Source of the DNA: Barnesiella sp. An22
Lineage (GTDB): Bacteria > Bacteroidota > Bacteroidia > Bacteroidales > Barnesiellaceae
Assembly: GCF_002159975.1 (NCBI RefSeq)
Contig: NZ_NFJR01000007.1
Coordinates: forward strand, 62,001 to 126,000
Length of the DNA stretch: 64,000 nt
Direction: 5' to 3'
Below are positions 1,101 through 55,383 of this stretch, piece after piece; position 1 is the stretch's first letter, and each line of letters opens with the position of its first letter. A program made the position numbers and the translations under genes. The notes under the pieces were generated by a model. That model worked only from the letters and a program-made list of their open reading frames with translations, ran no database searches and had not been told where the DNA came from.

Positions 1101-2957
1101 TTATTCAAATTCGATGAGCGGGTCGTTGGTACCTACCACGTCGTTCTCTTTTACGAGAATGCGTTTTACCTTACCGTTGAGGGTCGAGAGAATATCGTTC
1201 TCCATCTTCATGGCCTCGTATACGAGCACCACGTCGTCCTTCTTCACCTGGTCGCCTACTTTCACTTTGATTTCGACTACCTTGCCACCCATGGGAGCGT
1301 CGATGGTGGGGCCGGTGATGGGCTCAACGGGAGCAGCCTCCTGAACCTCTTCCTTCTTCTCTTCGACAGCCGGTTTCTTGGCCTCGTATTCGGCGGCACG
1401 CACGCCTTTCAAGAAGGTGGTAGCCACGTTGGGGAAGAGCTCGAGCAACAGGTATTCCTGTTCGTTCTCGGCCAGCTTCACACCACCGAACTCGGGCAGC
1501 ACGGGATTCTCGGGAGCCTTGTACGAATTGGTATCGTAGGGCGTCTCGATGGGGCTGCCGGTAATCTTCTCGCGGAACTTGGGATCGACGGGTACCGGCG
1601 TCTTACCGTACTCGCCTTTTACCAAGGCCTTGAACTGGTTCGAAACCGTCGTGTATTCGGGGTTGCCTTTCAGACGGTCGAGGGCGCAGCTTACAGCCTG
1701 GCTACCTACGATTTGGCTGGTAGGCGTAACCAGAGGCACCAGACCGGCATCGGAACGTACCTTCGGAATCAGCTTCATGGCGTCGTCGAGTACGTGCTCG
1801 GCCTTGAGCTGTTTGAGCTGAGCCACCATGTTGGAGTACATACCGCCGGGAACCTCGGCCTCTTTCACCAGTTCGTTGGGTTTGGGGAAACCGAAGTAGT
1901 TTTCGATGGCGTGGCAAGCGTCGAGCAATGCGGGCTCGTCGTTGCGTTTGGCCGCATCGATAGCCGTATCGAAAAGTTTATCAATGTTGTCGGGCAGCTT
2001 GTCGATGAGCGGGTCGAAGGCAATGGGGAAGGAGTCTTTCTTCAGGTCGTAGGCGGCGAGCTCGCGGCGGATACCCAGCAACTCGGCACGAATCTTGCTC
2101 ACGGCGCTCATGTTGACCTCCATCTCCACGCCCAGTTTCTGGCAGAAGATGTAGAGCAACTCGATGGCCGGAGCAGCCGAACCGCCACCGAAATACCAGA
2201 TGTTGGTATCGAGAATGTCTACCCCGTGTATCACGGCCATGAGCGACGAAGCCAGACCGTAACCCGGCGTACAGTGGGTGTGGAAGTCGACGGGTACCTT
2301 CAGTGCCTTTTTCAACTTAGGCATCAGCGAGGCGATACGCGACGGATTTACCAGACCGGCCATATCTTTCAAGGTTACCATCTTGGCACCCAGTTTCTCG
2401 AAGCCGACAGCCTTCTCTACGAAATAGTCGTCGGTAAAGATGGGTTTGGGCAACTTCTTGCCGAAGAGGGCTTTCACCCGGTCCATAAAGGTGATGGTAT
2501 AGTGCGGGTCTACCGTGTAGCATACGGCACCATCGGAGATAGCGCCCACGGCATTTATCTTTTCGACCGACGACTTCACGTTGTTCAGGTCGTTGAGAGC
2601 ATCGAATATACGCATAATTCCCAACCCGTTGGCTACGGCCTCGCGATAAAAACCGTCGAGTACCGAATCGGGATAAGGGGCATATCCAAACAAATTGCGT
2701 CCCCGAGAGAGAGCAGTTAAATACGAAGCGCCGCCAATAGCATCGCTAATGGTTTTGAGGCGGGTCCAAGGGCTCTCGTTCAGATAGCGCATCACCGAGT
2801 CGGGTACTGCACCACCCCATACCTCCATGGCAAAGAAGCCGGCATCCTTATAATAAGGCAATACCCGGTTTATCTGCTCCTGGGTAAGACGAGTTGCGAA
2901 CAAGGATTGTTGCCCATCACGAAGGGTAAGATCTCGAATTTTCAATTTTCTTGACAT
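1101..2957 (-). CDS. oadA: Biotin-dependent carboxyltransferase subunit (oxaloacetate decarboxylase alpha / pyruvate carboxylase subunit B)
   Basis: A 618-residue protein with an HMGL-like carboxyltransferase domain at the N-terminus (LRDGQQSLFATR about residues 13-24; the metal-site region VDFHTHCTPGYG near 225), the conserved PYC/OADA domain in the middle, an Ala/Pro/Glu-rich linker near 510-550, and a C-terminal biotinyl domain with the biotinylation motif EAMKMEN. In this family the domain moves carboxyl between biotin and pyruvate/oxaloacetate. No biotin carboxylase or membrane beta/gamma subunit lies nearby, so the sequence alone does not separate sodium-pumping oxaloacetate decarboxylase from a two-subunit pyruvate carboxylase. 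It is a single-gene unit with its own promoter and terminator. Confidence 0.88.
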   Translation of the reverse strand: MSRKLKIRDLTLRDGQQSLFATRLTQEQINRVLPYYKDAGFFAMEVWGGAVPDSVMRYLNESPWTRLKTISDAIGGASYLTALSRGRNLFGYAPYPDSVLDGFYREAVANGLGIMRIFDALNDLNNVKSSVEKINAVGAISDGAVCYTVDPHYTITFMDRVKALFGKKLPKPIFTDDYFVEKAVGFEKLGAKMVTLKDMAGLVNPSRIASLMPKLKKALKVPVDFHTHCTPGYGLASSLMAVIHGVDILDTNIWYFGGGSAAPAIELLYIFCQKLGVEMEVNMSAVSKIRAELLGIRRELAAYDLKKDSFPIAFDPLIDKLPDNIDKLFDTAIDAAKRNDEPALLDACHAIENYFGFPKPNELVKEAEVPGGMYSNMVAQLKQLKAEHVLDDAMKLIPKVRSDAGLVPLVTPTSQIVGSQAVSCALDRLKGNPEYTTVSNQFKALVKGEYGKTPVPVDPKFREKITGSPIETPYDTNSYKAPENPVLPEFGGVKLAENEQEYLLLELFPNVATTFLKGVRAAEYEAKKPAVEEKKEEVQEAAPVEPITGPTIDAPMGGKVVEIKVKVGDQVKKDDVVLVYEAMKMENDILSTLNGKVKRILVKENDVVGTNDPLIEFE

Positions 2958-3012
2958 AGCAATCTGATTTAATAGGTGTTACTTTTTTCCACATTACATG
3001 ATTTCAAGCATA

Positions 3013-3043
3013 CAAATATAATATTCTTTAACTTATAATCAAA
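3013..3043 (-). promoter_or_regulatory. Bacteroidota-type promoter for oadA
   Basis: Minus-strand TTTG (3043-3040), 19 bases, then TATATTTG (3020-3013): both elements match consensus. A plus-strand TACTTTTG at 3054-3061, for the divergent phosphatase gene, sits next to it without a clear -33 box. Confidence 0.8.
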
Positions 3044-3092
3044 AGAAAAAGCGTACTTTTGTATCTCGAACGAATTTTCAAGGCATTCGCGT

Positions 3093-3824
3093 ATGTTCAA
3101 TTTCTTCCATAAAAAGTCTGCCGAAAAGCCTCTATTCCCCTATACAACAGAGGTTCACTGCCATATACTGCCGGGTATCGACGACGGTTCGCCCGACACC
3201 GAGCACTCGCTGCCCCTGCTGCGCCAGATGCGCGAATGGGGCATCGAAAAGGTAATCGCTACCCCTCACGTGACCGAAGCTACCTTCGAGAATACCCCGC
3301 AAACCGTGGGCGATGCCTACGACCGGCTGTGCCGCGAACCCGAGTTTGGCGAGCTGGGCATACAGTTGTGCTACTCGGCCGAGTATCGCATGGACGACAA
3401 TTTCCTGGCCATACTGCAACGCAACGAGGTGATGCCCATGCCGGGCAACCACCTGCTCATCGAGAACTCGTTTCTGCAACCTTTCTGGAACATCAAGGAG
3501 CTGGTCTTCGACCTGCAGCTCAAGGGCTTCTCGCCCATACTGGCCCACCCCGAGCGGTATGCCTATTACTACGACGACAAGAAAATCTATCAGGAGCTGC
3601 ACGACCAGGGATGCGAATTTCAGGTCAACCTGCTCTCGCTGGCCGGCTACTACAACAAGCGGACGAAAGAGGTGGCCGAGTGGCTGGTCTCGAAACAGAT
3701 GGTCGATTACCTGGGCAGCGACATGCACAACAGCAACCACGCCCAGCACATAGGCCGCTACCTCGCCAGCAAGGAGTTTGTGCGCCACATGCGCAACATT
3801 ACCCCCCGTAACAACACCTTGTAA
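3093..3824 (+). CDS. CpsB/YwqE-type protein-tyrosine phosphatase (PHP fold)
   Basis: A 243-residue polymerase-and-histidinol-phosphatase (PHP) family protein of the bacterial tyrosine-phosphatase group, which controls capsule or exopolysaccharide synthesis through tyrosine kinases. Metal-binding motifs are visible: TEVHCHILPGIDDG (residues 19-32), ATPHVTE (about 57), the buried acid in LLIENSF, and AHPERY followed by GSDMHNSNH near the C-terminus. There is no signal peptide, so it should be cytoplasmic. No kinase or polysaccharide genes lie next to it, so the substrate is not indicated. It converges on the penicillin-binding protein gene with a shared terminator between. Confidence 0.88.
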   Translation: MFNFFHKKSAEKPLFPYTTEVHCHILPGIDDGSPDTEHSLPLLRQMREWGIEKVIATPHVTEATFENTPQTVGDAYDRLCREPEFGELGIQLCYSAEYRMDDNFLAILQRNEVMPMPGNHLLIENSFLQPFWNIKELVFDLQLKGFSPILAHPERYAYYYDDKKIYQELHDQGCEFQVNLLSLAGYYNKRTKEVAEWLVSKQMVDYLGSDMHNSNHAQHIGRYLASKEFVRHMRNITPRNNTL

Positions 3825-3841
3825 ACATACTCCCCCTATAC

Positions 3842-3878
3842 GACAAGAGAGGCAAGTCACGCACTCGCCTCTCTTGTT
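3842..3878. terminator. Bidirectional terminator between convergent genes
   Basis: ACAAGAGAGGCAAGT pairs with ACTCGCCTCTCTTGT across a short loop. It lies 17 bases after the phosphatase stop and 20 before the PBP1A stop. Confidence 0.7.
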
Positions 3879-3897
3879 GCATCTATTGTAGTTATCT

Positions 3898-6264
3898 TTA
3901 ATCGAATATTCCCTCGATACTCTCCATCGGAGCCTCCTGGGCGGGCTCCTCGACGTAGGAACCGCCACTGCAGGGGTCGGCATACTCGGCCGGAATCTCA
4001 AAGTTGCTCTGCTGTGAATAGCCCAGCGTGGGGTCGGCATAGACCTTCTGCATGTAGAGGCCGTAGATAGGCAGGGCCATGCTGGCACCCTGACCGTCGG
4101 CCATGCCGTCGAAGTGAATCGAGCGGTCCTCGCCACCTACCCACACGCCCGAAACCAGGTCGGGGGTAAAGCCCATGAACCAACCGTCGGAGTTGTTGTT
4201 GGTCGTACCCGTCTTGCCACCCATCGGAGCCGTGATGCCGTAGCGGTAACGCACGCGGCCGCCGGTACCGTGGTCGATGACGTCGCGCAACATGGGCAGA
4301 ATGCGGTAGTAGGCCTGTTCGCTGAAGACCTCGGTCATCGTGGGGTTGAACTCGGCAATCACATTGCCCAGATTATCTTCTATGCGGGTGACATAGAGGG
4401 GGTCTACCCGCACTCCTTTGTTCGAAAAAGCGGTATAGGCGGTCACCATCTCCTCGACCGAAACGTCGACCGGACCCAGACAGAGCGATACCACCTCGTC
4501 GATTTTATTCTTGATACCGAACGAGTGCATCAGCCGGGCCAGCGACGAGGGCGACAGCTTGTCCATCAACCGGGCCGAAATCCAGTTGTTCGAGTTGGCC
4601 AACCCCCAGCGGAGGGTCACCATCTCGCCCACCCTCGCCTTCGACGAGTTGCGGGGCGACCACGCCTTGCCGTCTTCGGTGATGAGCGTGGGCTGTTCGT
4701 TCAGGAACATGTCGCAGGGGGTGAAGCCCTCTTCCATGGCCAGCGTATAGAGGAACGGTTTCACCGTCGACCCGATTTGCCGGCGGCCTACCGACACCAT
4801 GTTGTATTGGAAATGCTCGAAATCGGGTCCACCCACATAGGCTTTCACATGGCCTGTATGGGGATCCATCGACATGAAGCCCGTGCGGAGGAACGACTTC
4901 TGATACCGTATCGAATCCATGGGCGACATAATCGTATCGATCATGCCGTCGTACGAGAAGACCTGCATCTCGACCGGCGTAACGAAGGCCTGCCGGATGC
5001 GCTCGTCGCTCGCCCCGGCCTGCTTCATGGCCCGGTAGCGGTCGGACTGTTTCATGGCCCGCTCGAGAATGCCCTCGCGCTCCTCCTTCGTGATGCTGCG
5101 CGAGAAGGGTGCGTAGCTGCGTCCCTTTTTCTCGGCAAAAAAGCGGGGTTGCAGGTAGTGGCCCAGATGCTCCTCGACAGCCTCCTCGGCATAGCGCTGC
5201 ATGCGCGAGTCGATGGTCGTGTAGATTTTGAGACCGTCGGTATAGATATTGTATTTCGAGCCATCGGCCTTGCGGTTCTTCTCGCACCAGCCATAGAGCG
5301 GGTTGGTGGCCCAGGCTATGGAGTCGTCGACAAATTTCTGAGCCTCCCAGCCGCGGTAGTCGGCCCGGTCGGGTTTCTTGGCCGTCATCATCAAGCGCAA
5401 CTGCTCTCTGAAGTAGGGCGCCAATCCCTCCTTGTGGTCGACCCGCGTGTAGTGCAGCTCCAGCGGCAAAGCCTGCAGCGAGTCACGCTCGGCCTTGGTA
5501 ATGTATTTGGCTTTGTACATCTGGTCCAACACCGTGTTGCGGCGCCCGCGCGTGCGCTCGTTATAGCGGCGCGGATTGTAGTACGAAGGGTTTTTACACA
5601 TGCCCACCAGCGTGGCTGCCTCCTCGATTTTCAGCTTGTCGGGGGTGGTGTGGAAGTAAATGTAAGCAGCCGACTGGATACCCACCGCATTGTTGAGGAA
5701 GTCGAAGTGGTTGAGATACATGTTCACAATCTCCTCCTTGGTATAGAAGCGTTCGAGCTGTACGGCGATGACCCACTCCTGCGGTTTCTGGAAGAGGCGC
5801 TCCACGATGTTGTCGGCACTGGGCGAATAGAGCAGCTTGGCCAACTGTTGGGTGATGGTACTTCCACCGCCGGCACTCTTCTGGAAAAAGAGTCCACGCT
5901 TGATGAAGGCCCGGAAGAGCGCCTTCACGTCGATACCCGAGTGGTCCTTGAAGCGGATGTCTTCAGTAGCGATAAGGGCTTCGACCAGGTAGGGCGAGAT
6001 TTCGTCGTAGTGCACATACACCCGGTTACTCTTGCTCTGGTAGAAACGACCTATCACCTGCATGTCGGACGAATAGATTTCCGAAGCGAACTTATCCTTG
6101 GGGTTCTCCATATCCTCGATGGGCGGCATGTAGCCGATCCATCCCCAGGCAATCATGGCAAAAGCGACCACGGCAAGGAGCACCAGGGCACCGAAGGTAA
6201 TCCACATATATTTAATTACACGAGAGGTGTCGCTAAAAGCGCTTTTAATCCTATCCACTTTCAT
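3898..6264 (-). CDS. mrcA: Penicillin-binding protein 1A, bifunctional peptidoglycan synthase
   Basis: A class A penicillin-binding protein, 788 residues from the chosen start. It polymerises and cross-links peptidoglycan at the outer face of the inner membrane. One membrane segment (FGALVLLAVVAFAMIAWGWIG) follows a short cytoplasmic tail. The GT51 domain shows ATEDIRFKDHSGID and GGGSTITQQLAK. The transpeptidase domain has SxxK in GSTVKPFLY, SNN in LANSNNW, and KTGTTNNNSDGWF. The start at 6264 is chosen over an upstream frame to 6330 because AGGAAAG precedes it and the likely -7 element (caaaggta at 6340-6347) would leave no leader for 6330. It is divergent from pyrB. Confidence 0.93.
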   Translation of the reverse strand: MKVDRIKSAFSDTSRVIKYMWITFGALVLLAVVAFAMIAWGWIGYMPPIEDMENPKDKFASEIYSSDMQVIGRFYQSKSNRVYVHYDEISPYLVEALIATEDIRFKDHSGIDVKALFRAFIKRGLFFQKSAGGGSTITQQLAKLLYSPSADNIVERLFQKPQEWVIAVQLERFYTKEEIVNMYLNHFDFLNNAVGIQSAAYIYFHTTPDKLKIEEAATLVGMCKNPSYYNPRRYNERTRGRRNTVLDQMYKAKYITKAERDSLQALPLELHYTRVDHKEGLAPYFREQLRLMMTAKKPDRADYRGWEAQKFVDDSIAWATNPLYGWCEKNRKADGSKYNIYTDGLKIYTTIDSRMQRYAEEAVEEHLGHYLQPRFFAEKKGRSYAPFSRSITKEEREGILERAMKQSDRYRAMKQAGASDERIRQAFVTPVEMQVFSYDGMIDTIMSPMDSIRYQKSFLRTGFMSMDPHTGHVKAYVGGPDFEHFQYNMVSVGRRQIGSTVKPFLYTLAMEEGFTPCDMFLNEQPTLITEDGKAWSPRNSSKARVGEMVTLRWGLANSNNWISARLMDKLSPSSLARLMHSFGIKNKIDEVVSLCLGPVDVSVEEMVTAYTAFSNKGVRVDPLYVTRIEDNLGNVIAEFNPTMTEVFSEQAYYRILPMLRDVIDHGTGGRVRYRYGITAPMGGKTGTTNNNSDGWFMGFTPDLVSGVWVGGEDRSIHFDGMADGQGASMALPIYGLYMQKVYADPTLGYSQQSNFEIPAEYADPCSGGSYVEEPAQEAPMESIEGIFD

Positions 6265-6411
6265 TGTCTTTCCTATATATCTACGATTTTGCGGCCCGAG
6301 ACTCACACCTGCAAATCCCTTTAAAGCCAATTACTAAAGCAAAGGTAGCAAATATATTTCATTCAACGACATATTGCAGATTTATAAAGAATATTTTTTA
6401 TGGCTAAACAG

Positions 6412-50716: not shown

Positions 50717-50789
50717 GGTGCCATAGCTCAGATGGTAGAGCAAAGGACTGAAAATCCTTGTGTCCCCGGTTCGATTCCTGGTGGCACCA
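50717..50789 (+). tRNA. tRNA-Phe (anticodon GAA)
   Basis: A full cloverleaf: acceptor GGTGCCA/TGGCACC, D-arm GCTCAGATGGTAGAGC, anticodon stem AAGGA/TCCTT around CTGAAAA (anticodon GAA), T-arm with GGTTCGATTCC. Discriminator A; CCA not encoded. Its 3' 18 bases, plus one base beyond, form the left attachment site of the AT-rich island, and the displaced original end lies at 55175-55193. Confidence 0.98.
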
Positions 50790-50790
50790 C
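50772..50790. repeat. attL: left copy of the 19-bp island attachment site
   Basis: CGATTCCTGGTGGCACCAC, overlapping the T-arm and acceptor 3' strand of tRNA-Phe. The identical copy is at 55175-55193. Flanking bases differ on both sides, so 19 bp is the exact length of the direct repeat. Confidence 0.92.
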
Positions 50791-50814
50791 TTTGAAGAAA
50801 AGCAAAAGAAAGTA

Positions 50815-50848
50815 AAATCCTGATTTCACTTGGAAATCAGGATTTTTT
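50815..50848 (+). terminator. Terminator downstream of tRNA-Phe, inside the island
   Basis: A 12-13-bp perfect stem, AAATCCTGATTTC with GAAATCAGGATTT around a 5-base loop, followed by TTT. It replaces the native tRNA terminator, which now lies beyond attR at 55196-55233. The rest of 50849-51028 shows no gene. Confidence 0.85.
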
Positions 50849-51028
50849 GTTTTCCCCCGGCACGCAAAAAACGGCAAAATATTACCGTTCGAGGTAGAGC
50901 AAAAGGTGGAGATAAAAACTTTGTATATGAATTAGTTGGATAATTTTATAGTATTTACTGAATGGTACTAATTAGTTTCATTTAATCAAATAGCGTTAGA
51001 GCACACATACAAATCTAATGTTATATTA

Positions 51029-51526
51029 TTATAATTTAGGAATTAAACTAAACATATCTGGAGCTTTTGATGAAATATTCCAAATACCAACTTTCATCTT
51101 CTTTACAACTTTTCCTTTTCCAAAATCTAAAAGATCTTCTCTAAGAAAGATATTCAATAATTTATCTAGACTGCCCAAATTCATAGATGTAAACAAAAAT
51201 GCTTCTTCCGGATCTATTAGTTTACAATAGGCCCATAACTGACCTAGATCTCTTAAAGTAAGAGCCGTTTTTTTAGCTTCAATAAAAAATATTTTTGTTT
51301 CATTTTGTTTTTGCACTATGCCTAAAACATCTATTTGTATATCAACACCTATAGCAAGATCTATACATATACCATACTTTGCAAGAACTCTATCAAGTCT
51401 TTCTGCATGTGAATCCAATGTAATAACATTACATCCCTTATATTTATCCTGTAAATAATAATGCAACCAATTCCTCATTGGTTCATATAATTCTATTTCA
51501 TAACGGACATTCTTTCTATTCAACAT
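51029..51526 (-). CDS. PD-(D/E)XK-type nuclease, candidate restriction endonuclease
   Basis: A 165-residue protein. Residues 62-100 show the core of a PD-(D/E)XK nuclease: DIQIDVLGIV (Asp66), a strand-turn, then IFFIEAKK (Glu83, Lys85), followed by the helix LRDLGQLWAYCKLI often seen after the ExK strand. Glu12 or Glu15 could be the helix acid. It is the last gene of the five-gene cassette and overlaps the LAGLIDADG-like gene by 11 bases. As the only recognisable intact nuclease site in the cassette, it is the best candidate for DNA cleavage. No named family was identified. Confidence 0.65.
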   Translation of the reverse strand: MLNRKNVRYEIELYEPMRNWLHYYLQDKYKGCNVITLDSHAERLDRVLAKYGICIDLAIGVDIQIDVLGIVQKQNETKIFFIEAKKTALTLRDLGQLWAYCKLIDPEEAFLFTSMNLGSLDKLLNIFLREDLLDFGKGKVVKKMKVGIWNISSKAPDMFSLIPKL

Positions 51527-52406
51527 AACCTAATTCACTTGCAATCTCAATCCATGAGTTAAAATGTTTTCCCCTTATTATTTCAGGTATAAACTCATCT
51601 CCCTCACATGGATGCTGGATTTTCTTTTTAGAATATTTCTTTTTACTATCCCAATAATATCTATGCGTAATATCTGATGGAATTTTACCAGCGTTATTAT
51701 ACCCAGCAATAAGTTCATTTGAGTACATTTCCAAAGCCTGTTGTTTGTGTAATACACCAAAACCAATTGGTAAAAACTCATTAGCCCATATTTTTATTTG
51801 ATGCTCTTTTTTCCAAAAAGAAAAATTCCCTTCATTATATTTTTTACAATATCCATCTCTCATATTAGGATGAGCCCAATCTATATTTTGAACAGGTATA
51901 TCAATAGATTTTAATAAATTACAGATATCAATAACCAGTTGCCAGTTATTAGGTATTTCTAAATAAACTCTATGCTCATATTTATTAAAATAGCAATTAC
52001 TTCTTCTTATATAACCAGTTACATCAGCAAACCCTCTTAAGAAATACTTTTTCTCATCAATAGAGAAATTTAAGACTTCATTATCTAACTTTATTTCATT
52101 ATGAGTATTTGCATTTCCAATATAACGTATAATTTCCCTTATTAAGTATTCATTGTTAGGCTTAGAAAAAGAAATTATTGTACAGTGTTGATATTGAATA
52201 AACTTCAGGCTATTACCAATTAATGGTTCTATGATATTACGTATGTCAGCAATACTAGCTTTAACATATAATTTTATATCATGAAAATCTTCTGTTACTA
52301 ACTTTTTATGAGGAATGGTAATAGAGATAATGGTATCATTCATATTTCTCTGAATTTCACCGTTACCACATATCATTCCTAAAAGATATGACATCTCAAT
52401 ATTCAT
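51516..52406 (-). CDS. LAGLIDADG-like protein with altered catalytic positions
   Basis: A 296-residue protein with two LAGLIDADG-type helices: SYLLGMICGNGEI (residues 6-18) and YFLRGFADVTGYI (121-133), spaced as in single-chain two-domain homing endonucleases. The positions that normally hold the catalytic acids are Asn15 and Thr130, so cleavage by the standard mechanism is doubtful; it may be a DNA-binding or specificity protein. Residues 270-296 (GDEFIPEIIRGKHFNSWIEIASELG) form a distinct tail. It starts two bases after the 116-residue gene and overlaps the nuclease gene, so it belongs to the cassette, not to an intron or intein. Confidence 0.6.
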   Translation of the reverse strand: MNIEMSYLLGMICGNGEIQRNMNDTIISITIPHKKLVTEDFHDIKLYVKASIADIRNIIEPLIGNSLKFIQYQHCTIISFSKPNNEYLIREIIRYIGNANTHNEIKLDNEVLNFSIDEKKYFLRGFADVTGYIRRSNCYFNKYEHRVYLEIPNNWQLVIDICNLLKSIDIPVQNIDWAHPNMRDGYCKKYNEGNFSFWKKEHQIKIWANEFLPIGFGVLHKQQALEMYSNELIAGYNNAGKIPSDITHRYYWDSKKKYSKKKIQHPCEGDEFIPEIIRGKHFNSWIEIASELGYVE

Positions 52407-52408
52407 AC

Positions 52409-52759
52409 TTAATTATGACCTAATATATATCCGTGTTCAAACAAAAAATTCACAAGACTATTGTCATCAATTCTATATTTAAACTCATCAGCTCTATATA
52501 CCTTATTTTTATACATTCTATCTTGCCAATATGCTGATAAATTATTTTTATTATTAAAGTAGACTCTAAGTTCTACTCCCCATTTATCAACATCCCCAAG
52601 TTTTCGTATCCCTTGACTTGATATACTTATATTTCTATGATATTTACTATTATAGCTACTGATAAAATTAGCTATTCTTTCTTCTCTAGCTTCTGCCTCA
52701 ATAAAAATACTTTGAGGATTTTGCCTTAAAAACTGCAAAAAAGAATCATTATTATCCAT
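52409..52759 (-). CDS. Unknown 116-residue protein of the island cassette
   Basis: No family recognised. A charged protein, MDNNDSFLQFLRQNPQSIFI at the start, with a central KLGDVDKWGVELRVYFNNK strand pair and an aromatic C-terminus (FLFEHGYILGHN). No signal peptide or membrane segment. It starts four bases after the second methyltransferase stop and ends two bases before the LAGLIDADG-like start, so it is co-translated with them. It could be a small subunit of the nuclease or a control protein; there is no clear helix-turn-helix. Confidence 0.6.
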   Translation of the reverse strand: MDNNDSFLQFLRQNPQSIFIEAEAREERIANFISSYNSKYHRNISISSQGIRKLGDVDKWGVELRVYFNNKNNLSAYWQDRMYKNKVYRADEFKYRIDDNSLVNFLFEHGYILGHN

Positions 52760-52763
52760 AGTG

Positions 52764-53540
52764 TTATTTTTTTATAAAGATTAAAATATATTCGTGCACT
52801 TTATTTATTCTAAATTTATAAGGGTATCCCAAAGGACGCATATTATTATATTCATGCTGTCTATCCCATATGATAATATCATCATATATAAAACCTATTT
52901 TTTGCATTTCTGTTGCAAGGTCACTATGTAAAGGATAAAAAACGCTTTTCTTCCTTATATCCATTACATTTATTAAACAATAGGATCCCGGAATTAAAAC
53001 ATCATATACAAGCTTAAATATAGAGCCAAGCGAATTAAGAAAAATCTTATAATCGCAAATATTACCCAAATCATTGGGATTGTCAGAATAGTTTTGAATT
53101 TCCTTTCTATCTGCACTTCTTTTCATATTAAGAATATCCCAATACGGAGGAGATGTCAGACACAAATTAACTGTATTTGGATGTATATTTTTTAACTCTT
53201 CAAGACTATCACCATTAATTATGGAAATATTACAATCATCACCAATACGATGCCTTGCAAGTTCACAGAACTCTGTGGATAAATCTATTCCTATTGCAGA
53301 TCTATTAAGATTTTTTGCAGCAACAAGAGTAGAACCAATACCACTAAAAGGGTCCAATACGACTCCGTCATTTCTCGAAAACGTACTGATCAATTTTTCA
53401 CACAATGACACAGGGTATGAGGCAGGATGCTTAAATTCCTTTTCTTCTATCGTTTTATTAAAGTTTCTCCAAATACTAAAAGAATTTTGCAACCACTCTT
53501 TTCCCGTTAAATCATTACATCTTTTATCTTTATTTATCAT
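52764..53540 (-). CDS. DNA amino-methyltransferase (TSPPYW type; cytosine-N4 or adenine-N6)
   Basis: 258 residues. Motif order is X-I-IV: KHPASYPVSLCEKLIS, then the S-adenosylmethionine loop VVLDPFSGIGSTLVAA (Asp63 to Ser70), acidic GIDLS, then the catalytic LCLTSPPYW (129-134). TSPPYW favours cytosine-N4 methylation but adenine-N6 is possible. There is little room for a large target-recognition domain after motif IV (about 120 residues). The gene overlaps the first methyltransferase by 11 bases. Two methyltransferases in one cassette suggest an asymmetric target with one enzyme per strand. Confidence 0.85.
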   Translation of the reverse strand: MINKDKRCNDLTGKEWLQNSFSIWRNFNKTIEEKEFKHPASYPVSLCEKLISTFSRNDGVVLDPFSGIGSTLVAAKNLNRSAIGIDLSTEFCELARHRIGDDCNISIINGDSLEELKNIHPNTVNLCLTSPPYWDILNMKRSADRKEIQNYSDNPNDLGNICDYKIFLNSLGSIFKLVYDVLIPGSYCLINVMDIRKKSVFYPLHSDLATEMQKIGFIYDDIIIWDRQHEYNNMRPLGYPYKFRINKVHEYILIFIKK

Positions 53541-54921
53541 AATTCCATTTTTCTGATTGAATCAATCTTACCTGAGTATCAATATATTTTCTTTCTTCTA
53601 TAGTTATATTGTAAGTTTCATAAATAATATTATTCAGATCTTCAACAGCTTCATACCATTCATTACACATATATGAAATATTTTCAAGCAACTTTACTAT
53701 ACTAATAACTTTTGTAAAAGTACCAGTATTAATAATCAAAGGAATCTTTTTTAAGTATTTCGCGTCAGCATGCATTGTAAGTTTCGAGCCATTAAAACAA
53801 AACCTCATTAAATAGTAATTACATAAACGGGAATGCAAGACTCCTAATACATAACGACACATTTTCTCATCCCCATCCGTAAAAACTGTAACTGTTTCTG
53901 AAGCCTCCATGTTCCCAGCAAAACTAGCAATTATTCCAGCTTCTGCGCTATAAATATTTTGAATAAATATTTTATTACCATTAGATGGTACTGGAACATT
54001 CTTAAATGAAAACTTTCTTATGTTCTTTCCAGCTATAGCATTAGGAGATTTTGATTTCCCTCTTCCAACATATCCTGTACAAATATCACCTAATTTTTTG
54101 TATGATGACTTTAATTTTTTATATATCTTAAAGTCATATACATTTGAAAACAACAAGATTTCATCACTAAAAAAGTTTTGAGGGACCAATGTATTTGCAA
54201 CAAACTCACCTTGACGATAACTAAAAAATTCAATATTATTATTAGGTGAATATTCGTTTGCAAGAGTTAAAACAATTTGTTCTCCCCTAACATTTTTGAA
54301 ATATGCTCCTAAATCTATTATAGATCTTATTCTTTTCTCTCTCAAAAGAAATCTTCTTAAAATACTATAAGCTGAAACATGCAAAAAGTTCTTAGGTATT
54401 ATATATGATATACCCCCACCTACTTTAACTAATTCAAAGGCCCTATATATTGCAGCTATAAAAAGATTACTACCAGAATCTTTAACATTCCTTAAAAACA
54501 AATAATCGAATGTGTTTATCGTTATGTCTTTACTAATAGGTACATAAGGAGGATTACCAATTACAAAATCAACTTTTTCCCTTAGCCCAATCTTCTTTAA
54601 TACAATATCCCCACTATTTGATAAAGAATCAACAATATGAATATTGGAAACACCACTATTCTTCTTACAAAAATCAACCGCTCCTTTATCAATATCTGAA
54701 CCATATAAATTATTATATCCTAAACACTTAGCAGAAATAATAAAATTTCCAGTGCCACAACAAGGATCCAATATAGATGCATTGATTGGAATATTTAAGA
54801 ATTTAATTATTTTCAAAGACAAATCAACATCTGTATAATATATTCCATCACTTTTTTTTTTAGCAGTCAAAAGAGATGTTTCATATTCCTTGCTTTTTTT
54901 AGAATATTCGGTTATTTCCAT
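53530..54921 (-). CDS. N6-adenine DNA methyltransferase, gamma class (TaqI/Eco57I-like)
   Basis: A 463-residue protein. Motif X-like KKSDGIYYT (residues 22-30), motif I ILDPCCGTGNFIISAK (Asp52 to Phe60), SDIDKGAVDF, and the catalytic VIGNPPYV (Asn123-Tyr126), in gamma-class order X-I-IV. The C-terminal half (about 260-440) looks like a TaqI-type target-recognition domain. First gene of the cassette; a possible -7 box TATATTTG lies at 54994-54987. Base composition is far more AT-rich than the host genes, showing recent transfer. Confidence 0.88.
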   Translation of the reverse strand: MEITEYSKKSKEYETSLLTAKKKSDGIYYTDVDLSLKIIKFLNIPINASILDPCCGTGNFIISAKCLGYNNLYGSDIDKGAVDFCKKNSGVSNIHIVDSLSNSGDIVLKKIGLREKVDFVIGNPPYVPISKDITINTFDYLFLRNVKDSGSNLFIAAIYRAFELVKVGGGISYIIPKNFLHVSAYSILRRFLLREKRIRSIIDLGAYFKNVRGEQIVLTLANEYSPNNNIEFFSYRQGEFVANTLVPQNFFSDEILLFSNVYDFKIYKKLKSSYKKLGDICTGYVGRGKSKSPNAIAGKNIRKFSFKNVPVPSNGNKIFIQNIYSAEAGIIASFAGNMEASETVTVFTDGDEKMCRYVLGVLHSRLCNYYLMRFCFNGSKLTMHADAKYLKKIPLIINTGTFTKVISIVKLLENISYMCNEWYEAVEDLNNIIYETYNITIEERKYIDTQVRLIQSEKWNYDK

Positions 54922-55174: not shown

Positions 55175-55193
55175 CGATTCCTGGTGGCACCAC
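55175..55193. repeat. attR: right copy of the 19-bp attachment site
   Basis: CGATTCCTGGTGGCACCAC, identical to the tRNA-Phe 3' end at 50772-50790. It is the displaced original tRNA end. The preceding base is A here and T in attL; the following base is C here and T in attL. Confidence 0.92.
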
Positions 55194-55195
55194 CG

Positions 55196-55233
55196 AAAAC
55201 CGAGATAGCAATATTTGCTGTTTCGGTTTTTTC
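55196..55233 (+). terminator. Displaced native terminator of tRNA-Phe
   Basis: AAAACCGA (55196-55203) pairs with TCGGTTTT (55223-55230), with an inner AGCA/TGCT pairing, followed by TT. It sits directly after attR, where the terminator would have stood before the island inserted. Confidence 0.7.
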
Positions 55234-55383
55234 GTTTCTACCTTCCCCTCTCATAGAATACCGGCCTACTCTTCTGCATTTCGTCAAGGGCGAGACGACC
55301 CATAACCATACAGCCGTAATTCACAAACCAAGGATACTTTCCCGGCCGATACCGTGCTGGGCCATAGTCTCGCGCAAAGGCAT

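Follow-up and report, generated by a model that had tools for sequence, protein, structure and literature searches.

A candidate Type II restriction-modification cassette pairing a LAGLIDADG-fold protein that lacks the catalytic acids with a small PD-(D/E)XK-type nuclease

Which protein would read the target, and which would cut it, in a gene cassette that places two DNA methyltransferases beside a LAGLIDADG-like protein, a small nuclease and a further small protein? This question is raised by positions 51029-54921 of a 64-kb stretch (the window) of the 3.35-Mb genome, 99.7% complete, of Barnesiella sp. An22. The five open reading frames, all on the minus strand, are named here MT1, MT2, S, LG and NUC in their order of reading. 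The initial annotation of the window described five same-strand genes with overlaps of 11 nucleotides (nt) and gaps of 2-4 nt, and the coordinates bear this out: MT1/MT2 and LG/NUC overlap by 11 nt each, the gaps are 4 nt between MT2 and S and 2 nt between S and LG, and the gene lengths also agree. We consider it likely that the cassette is a Type II restriction-modification (R-M) system with an asymmetric target, in which LG would be the reader and NUC the cutter. Three of the features reported below were absent from that annotation, namely an apparently dead LAGLIDADG site, interchangeable methyltransferases and bounding repeats of a tRNA-Phe gene.

The LG-NUC pair

The identity of LG came only from its predicted fold, because nothing significant was found in the sequence libraries (Pfam, NCBIfam, PADLOC, PHROGs and the sequences of the PDB), and a profile of LG likewise had no PDB sequence match at E values up to 10. 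The AlphaFold2 model, made with a 60-sequence alignment, has a predicted local distance difference test score (pLDDT) of 90 and a predicted template modelling score of 0.90. Foldseek aligns it with LAGLIDADG proteins at E values down to 2.7e-6, and in VIA-align it reaches Z-scores of 14.7 with PI-SceI, 14.6 with I-Tsp061I, 13.3 with I-DmoI and 12.5-12.8 with WhiA. LG therefore shows, as far as the model goes, the fold and the two motif helices (LLGMICGNG and LRGFADVTG) of a LAGLIDADG homing endonuclease, but not the acidic residue that each helix carries in such enzymes. The metal-binding acid positions are Asn15 in helix 1 and Thr130 in helix 2 in all 88 sequences of the family. VIA-align sets residue 1 of the LG model on residue 204 of PI-SceI, 7 of I-DmoI and 30 of I-SceI, and an ungapped helix-1 offset then puts residue 15 on D218, D21 and D44, respectively, the known catalytic residues of those enzymes. 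With N15 and T130 invariant at the acid positions, the LAGLIDADG active site of LG appears to be dead. LG was also considered as a homing endonuclease proper, and this was ruled out by the lost active site together with the fixed gene pairing described below. The strands of LG that are predicted to face DNA have a mean entropy of 0.46 bits in the second half of the protein versus 1.29 bits in the first half; the conserved second-half strands would fit a common half-site of the target.

The neighbouring NUC protein is, by its motif, a PD-(D/E)XK-type nuclease. Residues D66, E83, A84, K85, Q96 and Y100 are invariant among 57 homologues, giving the motif D-x-EAK and the conserved D...(D/E)xK arrangement. 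Weak family matches point mostly to PD-(D/E)XK families, the commonest being the YhcG_C PDDEXK nuclease domain (19 of 57 members, best E 0.0025), followed by others such as Cas4d and REase_II. PADLOC-type nuclease models gave scattered weak matches for other NUC members; the LG, NUC and S proteins of the window itself have no match in the PADLOC defence models or other curated family libraries.

The LG and NUC genes are never apart. A search of 395 Bacteroidota genomes with LG returned the host alone, and the spread of the family was therefore judged from a contig scan of species-level genomes, in which at least 137 places with LG were found and 80 of 137 were kept for analysis. Together with the window, two Lactiplantibacillus plantarum plasmids, two annotated gut phages and three IMG/VR contigs, these make up 88 loci, spread over about a dozen phyla that include Bacillota, Bacteroidota, Spirochaetota, Elusimicrobiota, Synergistota, Mycoplasmatota, Pseudomonadota and Chloroflexota; because many loci come from metagenome bins, individual phyla may be misassigned. 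LG and NUC are adjacent in every one of the 88 loci, with ends that nearly always overlap and a gap that never exceeds 5 nt. When plasmids and phages were searched with NUC alone, the result was identical to that with LG, namely two phages and two plasmids, and in 291 genomes of a carrier's class neither protein was convincingly found outside that carrier. Cultured carriers include [Ruminococcus] torques ATCC 27756 and L. plantarum P9. The two L. plantarum plasmids are small and hold replication genes, a YafQ-family toxin and the restriction module, whose LG and NUC are annotated as hypothetical; they would be a convenient cultured source. In phage NatCom_34063 (L004, positions 4202-6295), the gene next after the LG-NUC pair encodes a Type IV restriction protein of the GmrSD type.

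All five genes of the window are under purifying selection in the comparison with the closest relative, with ratios of nonsynonymous to synonymous substitution rates (dN/dS) of 0.07-0.24 (LG 0.07, NUC 0.15 and S 0.24). Because of this selection, and because the LG-NUC pair recurs in all 88 loci, the locus is not a chance arrangement. The same observations bear on the idea that the cassette is a remnant or a stabilising module, its nuclease pair being inactive or acting on other substrates. The loss of both LAGLIDADG acids would agree with it, as would a relative that keeps the methyltransferases without LG and NUC (L109, see below), but the strong selection on LG and NUC, the invariant nuclease residues of NUC and the perfect linkage of the pair across about a dozen phyla make it quite improbable.

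The main rival to our reading is an arrangement like that of the Type IIT enzyme BtsI, in which LG would recognise the target and also cut one strand through a new, non-LAGLIDADG site while NUC cuts the other. There is precedent in BtsI and BspD6I, where the large subunit recognises the target and cuts one strand and the small subunit cuts the other. A cluster of invariant LG residues could also be read in this way: H179, N181, R183, D184, E201 and H202, joined by P180, W198, K199 and Q203. On the other hand, family-library scans recognised no nuclease motif in LG, its fold matches are LAGLIDADG proteins, in which these very strands contact DNA, and the usual LAGLIDADG acids are gone in all 88 members. 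As for the two catalytic sites of a Type IIT enzyme, the motif of NUC gives one site, and the LAGLIDADG site of LG, with N15/T130, looks dead. On balance we regard the BtsI-like arrangement as unlikely. Nevertheless, the first six residues of that cluster weigh against a purely DNA-reading LG, which may have evolved another active site. On the same side of the scale, NUC has no sequence relative in the PDB (profile search, E up to 10), the members of the family are known from sequence and prediction, and one of them may already be listed in REBASE.

Exchange of the methyltransferases

In contrast to the fixed LG-NUC pair, the methyltransferases vary from locus to locus. In the window, MT1 matches the Pfam families Eco57I (E 1.3e-17) and N6_Mtase (4.1e-15), and its C-terminal region resembles the TaqI specificity domain (TaqI_C 7.7e-4, below the Pfam cut-off); its NPPY motif is kept in 48 of 48 homologues. 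The match of MT2 to N6_N4_Mtase (4e-35) is split over two stretches in permuted order, motif I (DPFSGIGST) preceding motif IV (TSPPYW), and the latter is kept in 43 of 43 homologues. From general knowledge of such motifs, NPPY marks MT1 as an adenine enzyme and TSPPYW marks MT2 as most likely an N4-cytosine enzyme, so that the base modified by MT2 is probably N4-cytosine. MT1 was also considered as a BREX PglX or MADS component, and this was rejected, the matches being to the common methyltransferase domain only and far under the cut-offs.

One adenine and one cytosine methyltransferase are present in all 84 loci where both enzymes are visible. The Eco57I-type enzyme is paired with a TSPPYW enzyme in 41 of these; in 36, an EcoRI-type adenine enzyme (PF13651, 6e-118) accompanies a C5-cytosine enzyme (PF00145), either fused, as in L. 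plantarum P9, or separate; and the remaining seven combine the Eco57I type with C5. The pairings change at least five times on the LG tree, and EcoRI-type plus C5 sits in two separate clades. In other words, the methyltransferases have been swapped independently around a fixed LG-NUC pair. The combination of an adenine with a cytosine enzyme nevertheless persists at each of these loci. This is most simply explained by an unchanging asymmetric target that needs protection at an adenine in one strand and at a cytosine in the other.

Two methyltransferases that modify the two strands are normal in Type IIS and Type IIT systems (PMC4081073), and a pair that would work in this way stands beside the nuclease genes in each of the 84 loci. 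Gene anatomy and comparative genomics thus support the initial proposal of a system with two methyltransferases and an asymmetric target, and they also favour its suggestion that recognition (LAGLIDADG-like) and cutting (PD-(D/E)XK) would lie on separate chains, the latter on the strength of predicted folds and motifs. The proposed co-occurrence of all five genes stood in part: LG, NUC and both kinds of methyltransferase recur together, and S is not a fixed member. The constant core is LG, NUC, one adenine and one cytosine methyltransferase, and not five genes.

The accessory protein S and the bounds of the cassette

The 116-residue protein S was initially assigned a part in target recognition, and this did not hold up. 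The S family occurs in 51 of the 88 loci and is missing in 37; it has two subtypes, is doubled in about a dozen loci, and lies either before LG or after NUC. It also occurs without LG and NUC. At L108 (G907, positions 1333-5449), a fused C5 and Eco57I-type methyltransferase and an HNH-like protein are followed by S, probably forming another Type IIS-like system that shares this accessory. At L109 (G431), S comes after MT1 and MT2, and the locus has neither LG nor NUC. Further S matches in L102/L110 and L107 were dismissed as false positives.

Could S still be a recognition or cleavage subunit of a three-chain restriction complex? In the window and in many relatives its gene does stand between those of the methyltransferases and that of LG, and eight loci (L008, L039, L040, L047, L049, L050, L053 and L055) encode S joined to a nuclease-like NOV_C domain (PF13020). 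Against this stand its absence from 37 loci, its company at L108 (an HNH-like protein) and at L109 (the two methyltransferases only), and its fusion to MT2 in L019, and we judge a three-chain complex very improbable. The NOV_C part of the fusions bears an (I/V)EVK nuclease-like motif, and the fusion protein sits between the methyltransferases and LG.

Because S is missing in so many loci and is found elsewhere without LG and NUC, the cassette has no constant set of five genes, and because it occurs without these two partners, S is unlikely to help recognise the target. We place it outside the cutting core, as an optional accessory that evolves fast: between the window and the same-genus relative L009 it is 80% identical, compared with 97% for LG, while still under purifying selection. 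Its AlphaFold2 model is confident (pLDDT 95); the model has no fold match in the PDB or BFVD, and the sequence has no family match. A packaging protein in the PDB (E 0.2) and the best VIA Z-score (2.8) were dismissed as chance. Regulator, methyltransferase helper and counter-defence sensor are candidates for its role.

The five-gene span first described does not quite cover the element, which is bounded on its two sides by exact 19-bp copies of the tRNA-Phe 3' end (Table 1). The G+C content of the five-gene island is 27-31% (about 28%), compared with 50-60% across most of the window and about 55% for the genome.

Table 1. Features of the cassette and its boundaries in the window
Feature	Position	Strand	Length	Description
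MT1	53530-54921	-	463 amino acids	DNA N6-adenine methyltransferase, Eco57I/TaqI type
MT2	52764-53540	-	258 amino acids	N6_N4 family DNA methyltransferase, probably N4-cytosine
S	52409-52759	-	116 amino acids	accessory protein, no family match
LG	51516-52406	-	296 amino acids	LAGLIDADG-fold protein (predicted), proposed target-recognition subunit
NUC	51029-51526	-	165 amino acids	small PD-(D/E)XK-type nuclease (motif), proposed cleavage subunit
tRNA-Phe(GAA)	50717-50790	+		ARAGORN, Rfam; 3' end 50772-50790 is the left-hand bounding repeat copy
Second tRNA-Phe 3'-end copy, CGATTCCTGGTGGCACCAC	55175-55193	+	19 bp	exact direct repeat D9; right boundary of the cassette

Similarity to the same-genus relative L009 stops exactly at the right repeat copy (55193). 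Genes for an integrase or a relaxase are absent from the cassette itself. In the same-genus relative, a MobA/VirD2-type relaxase is encoded directly beyond NUC, which makes the cassette there a portion of a mobilizable element; the copy in the window looks like a stripped version. Behind tRNA-Phe (within 50717-50960), at the tRNA end of the cassette, is a terminator-like sequence almost identical to the one after the second tRNA-Phe of the genome (C34; L136 2117-2330); another comes after the right repeat (within 55175-55240). A single simple integration at tRNA-Phe does not explain this placement. On the same-genus contig L138 (5679-10291), the relative's cassette is followed, past its tRNA-Phe end, by a Type ISP-like restriction system; this system comprises an Mrr/ResIII helicase and a Type_ISP_C methyltransferase and is apparently broken into several frames.

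Proposed mechanism and comparison with known systems

We infer the following division of labour, strand assignment and mode of cleavage and defence from gene content, motifs and models. Host DNA would be protected by MT1, methylating an adenine of one strand, and by MT2, methylating a cytosine of the opposite strand, probably at N4. The restriction enzyme would consist of two chains: LG, with its pseudo-symmetric LAGLIDADG fold devoid of metal-binding acids, would act as a single chain that reads the unmodified target and recruits or positions NUC, which would cut. With its single active site, NUC would have to act as two copies, or in two complexes, to break both strands. S would be optional and take no part in the cutting core. 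The cassette most likely lets a gut-type bacterium mark its own DNA and cut foreign DNA.

As the initial annotation supposed, no named system of this composition was matched in the libraries and papers searched. Literature on LAGLIDADG together with restriction, anti-phage systems or PDDEXK describes no such system, REBASE and subscription literature being outside the scope of the search, and a 2014 review groups Type II restriction enzymes under three main catalytic themes without naming LAGLIDADG (PMC4081073). We lean, by a little, towards a broader proposal: a widespread and unnamed Type II family, in which a dead homing-endonuclease fold reads for a separate PD-(D/E)XK cutter, the methyltransferases are freely exchanged (N4- or 5-methylcytosine, Eco57I- or EcoRI-type) around one conserved target with an adenine and a cytosine, and S, a protein of no matched fold, is shared with other restriction systems. 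If this is true, a LAGLIDADG fold kept only for DNA reading would link homing endonucleases with restriction enzymes, and the pair would be a natural counterpart of the engineered dead meganuclease joined to a separate nuclease. Chemically different methyltransferases swapped around one nuclease pair would likewise constitute a natural experiment on the matching of modification and restriction, and the swapping is testable by long-read methylomes of the cultured carriers named above.

Among known proteins, PI-SceI, I-DmoI and I-SceI resemble LG in its predicted fold, its two LAGLIDADG helices and its single-chain, pseudo-symmetric form. Unlike these homing endonucleases, LG has N15/T130, lies outside any intron or intein, and always accompanies a PD-(D/E)XK gene and methyltransferases. 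WhiA (DUF199) is also a bacterial protein with a LAGLIDADG fold and acts by binding, not cutting, DNA, and thus sets a precedent for the role proposed for LG. It is, however, a transcription factor with a helix-turn-helix domain, and LG has neither that role nor that gene context.

Among restriction systems, the Type IIS enzymes Alw26I, Eco31I and Esp3I (TIGR02987) share with this family an Eco57I-like adenine enzyme and a cytosine methyltransferase, the very pairing of the Eco57I plus C5 loci, and the best NCBIfam match of MT1, although far below the cut-off, is TIGR02987. Their restriction enzyme is a single HNH chain and is unrelated to LG and NUC. MhoVII of Mycoplasma hominis likewise has two methyltransferases, one for each strand of an asymmetric site, but both are adenine enzymes and its nuclease is a single AlwI-type chain (PMC12898733), whereas the present family combines adenine and cytosine enzymes with LG and NUC. 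Also comparable are the Type IIT enzymes, two-subunit enzymes with two methyltransferases (PMC4081073): BtsI, BsrDI and BspD6I have, as is proposed for the LG cassette, an asymmetric target, two methyltransferases, and a large recognition chain with a small catalytic chain (PMC4081073, PMC2909958). In those enzymes the large chain itself cuts one of the strands, and its description makes no mention of LAGLIDADG, whereas LG is predicted to have a LAGLIDADG fold without the catalytic acids.

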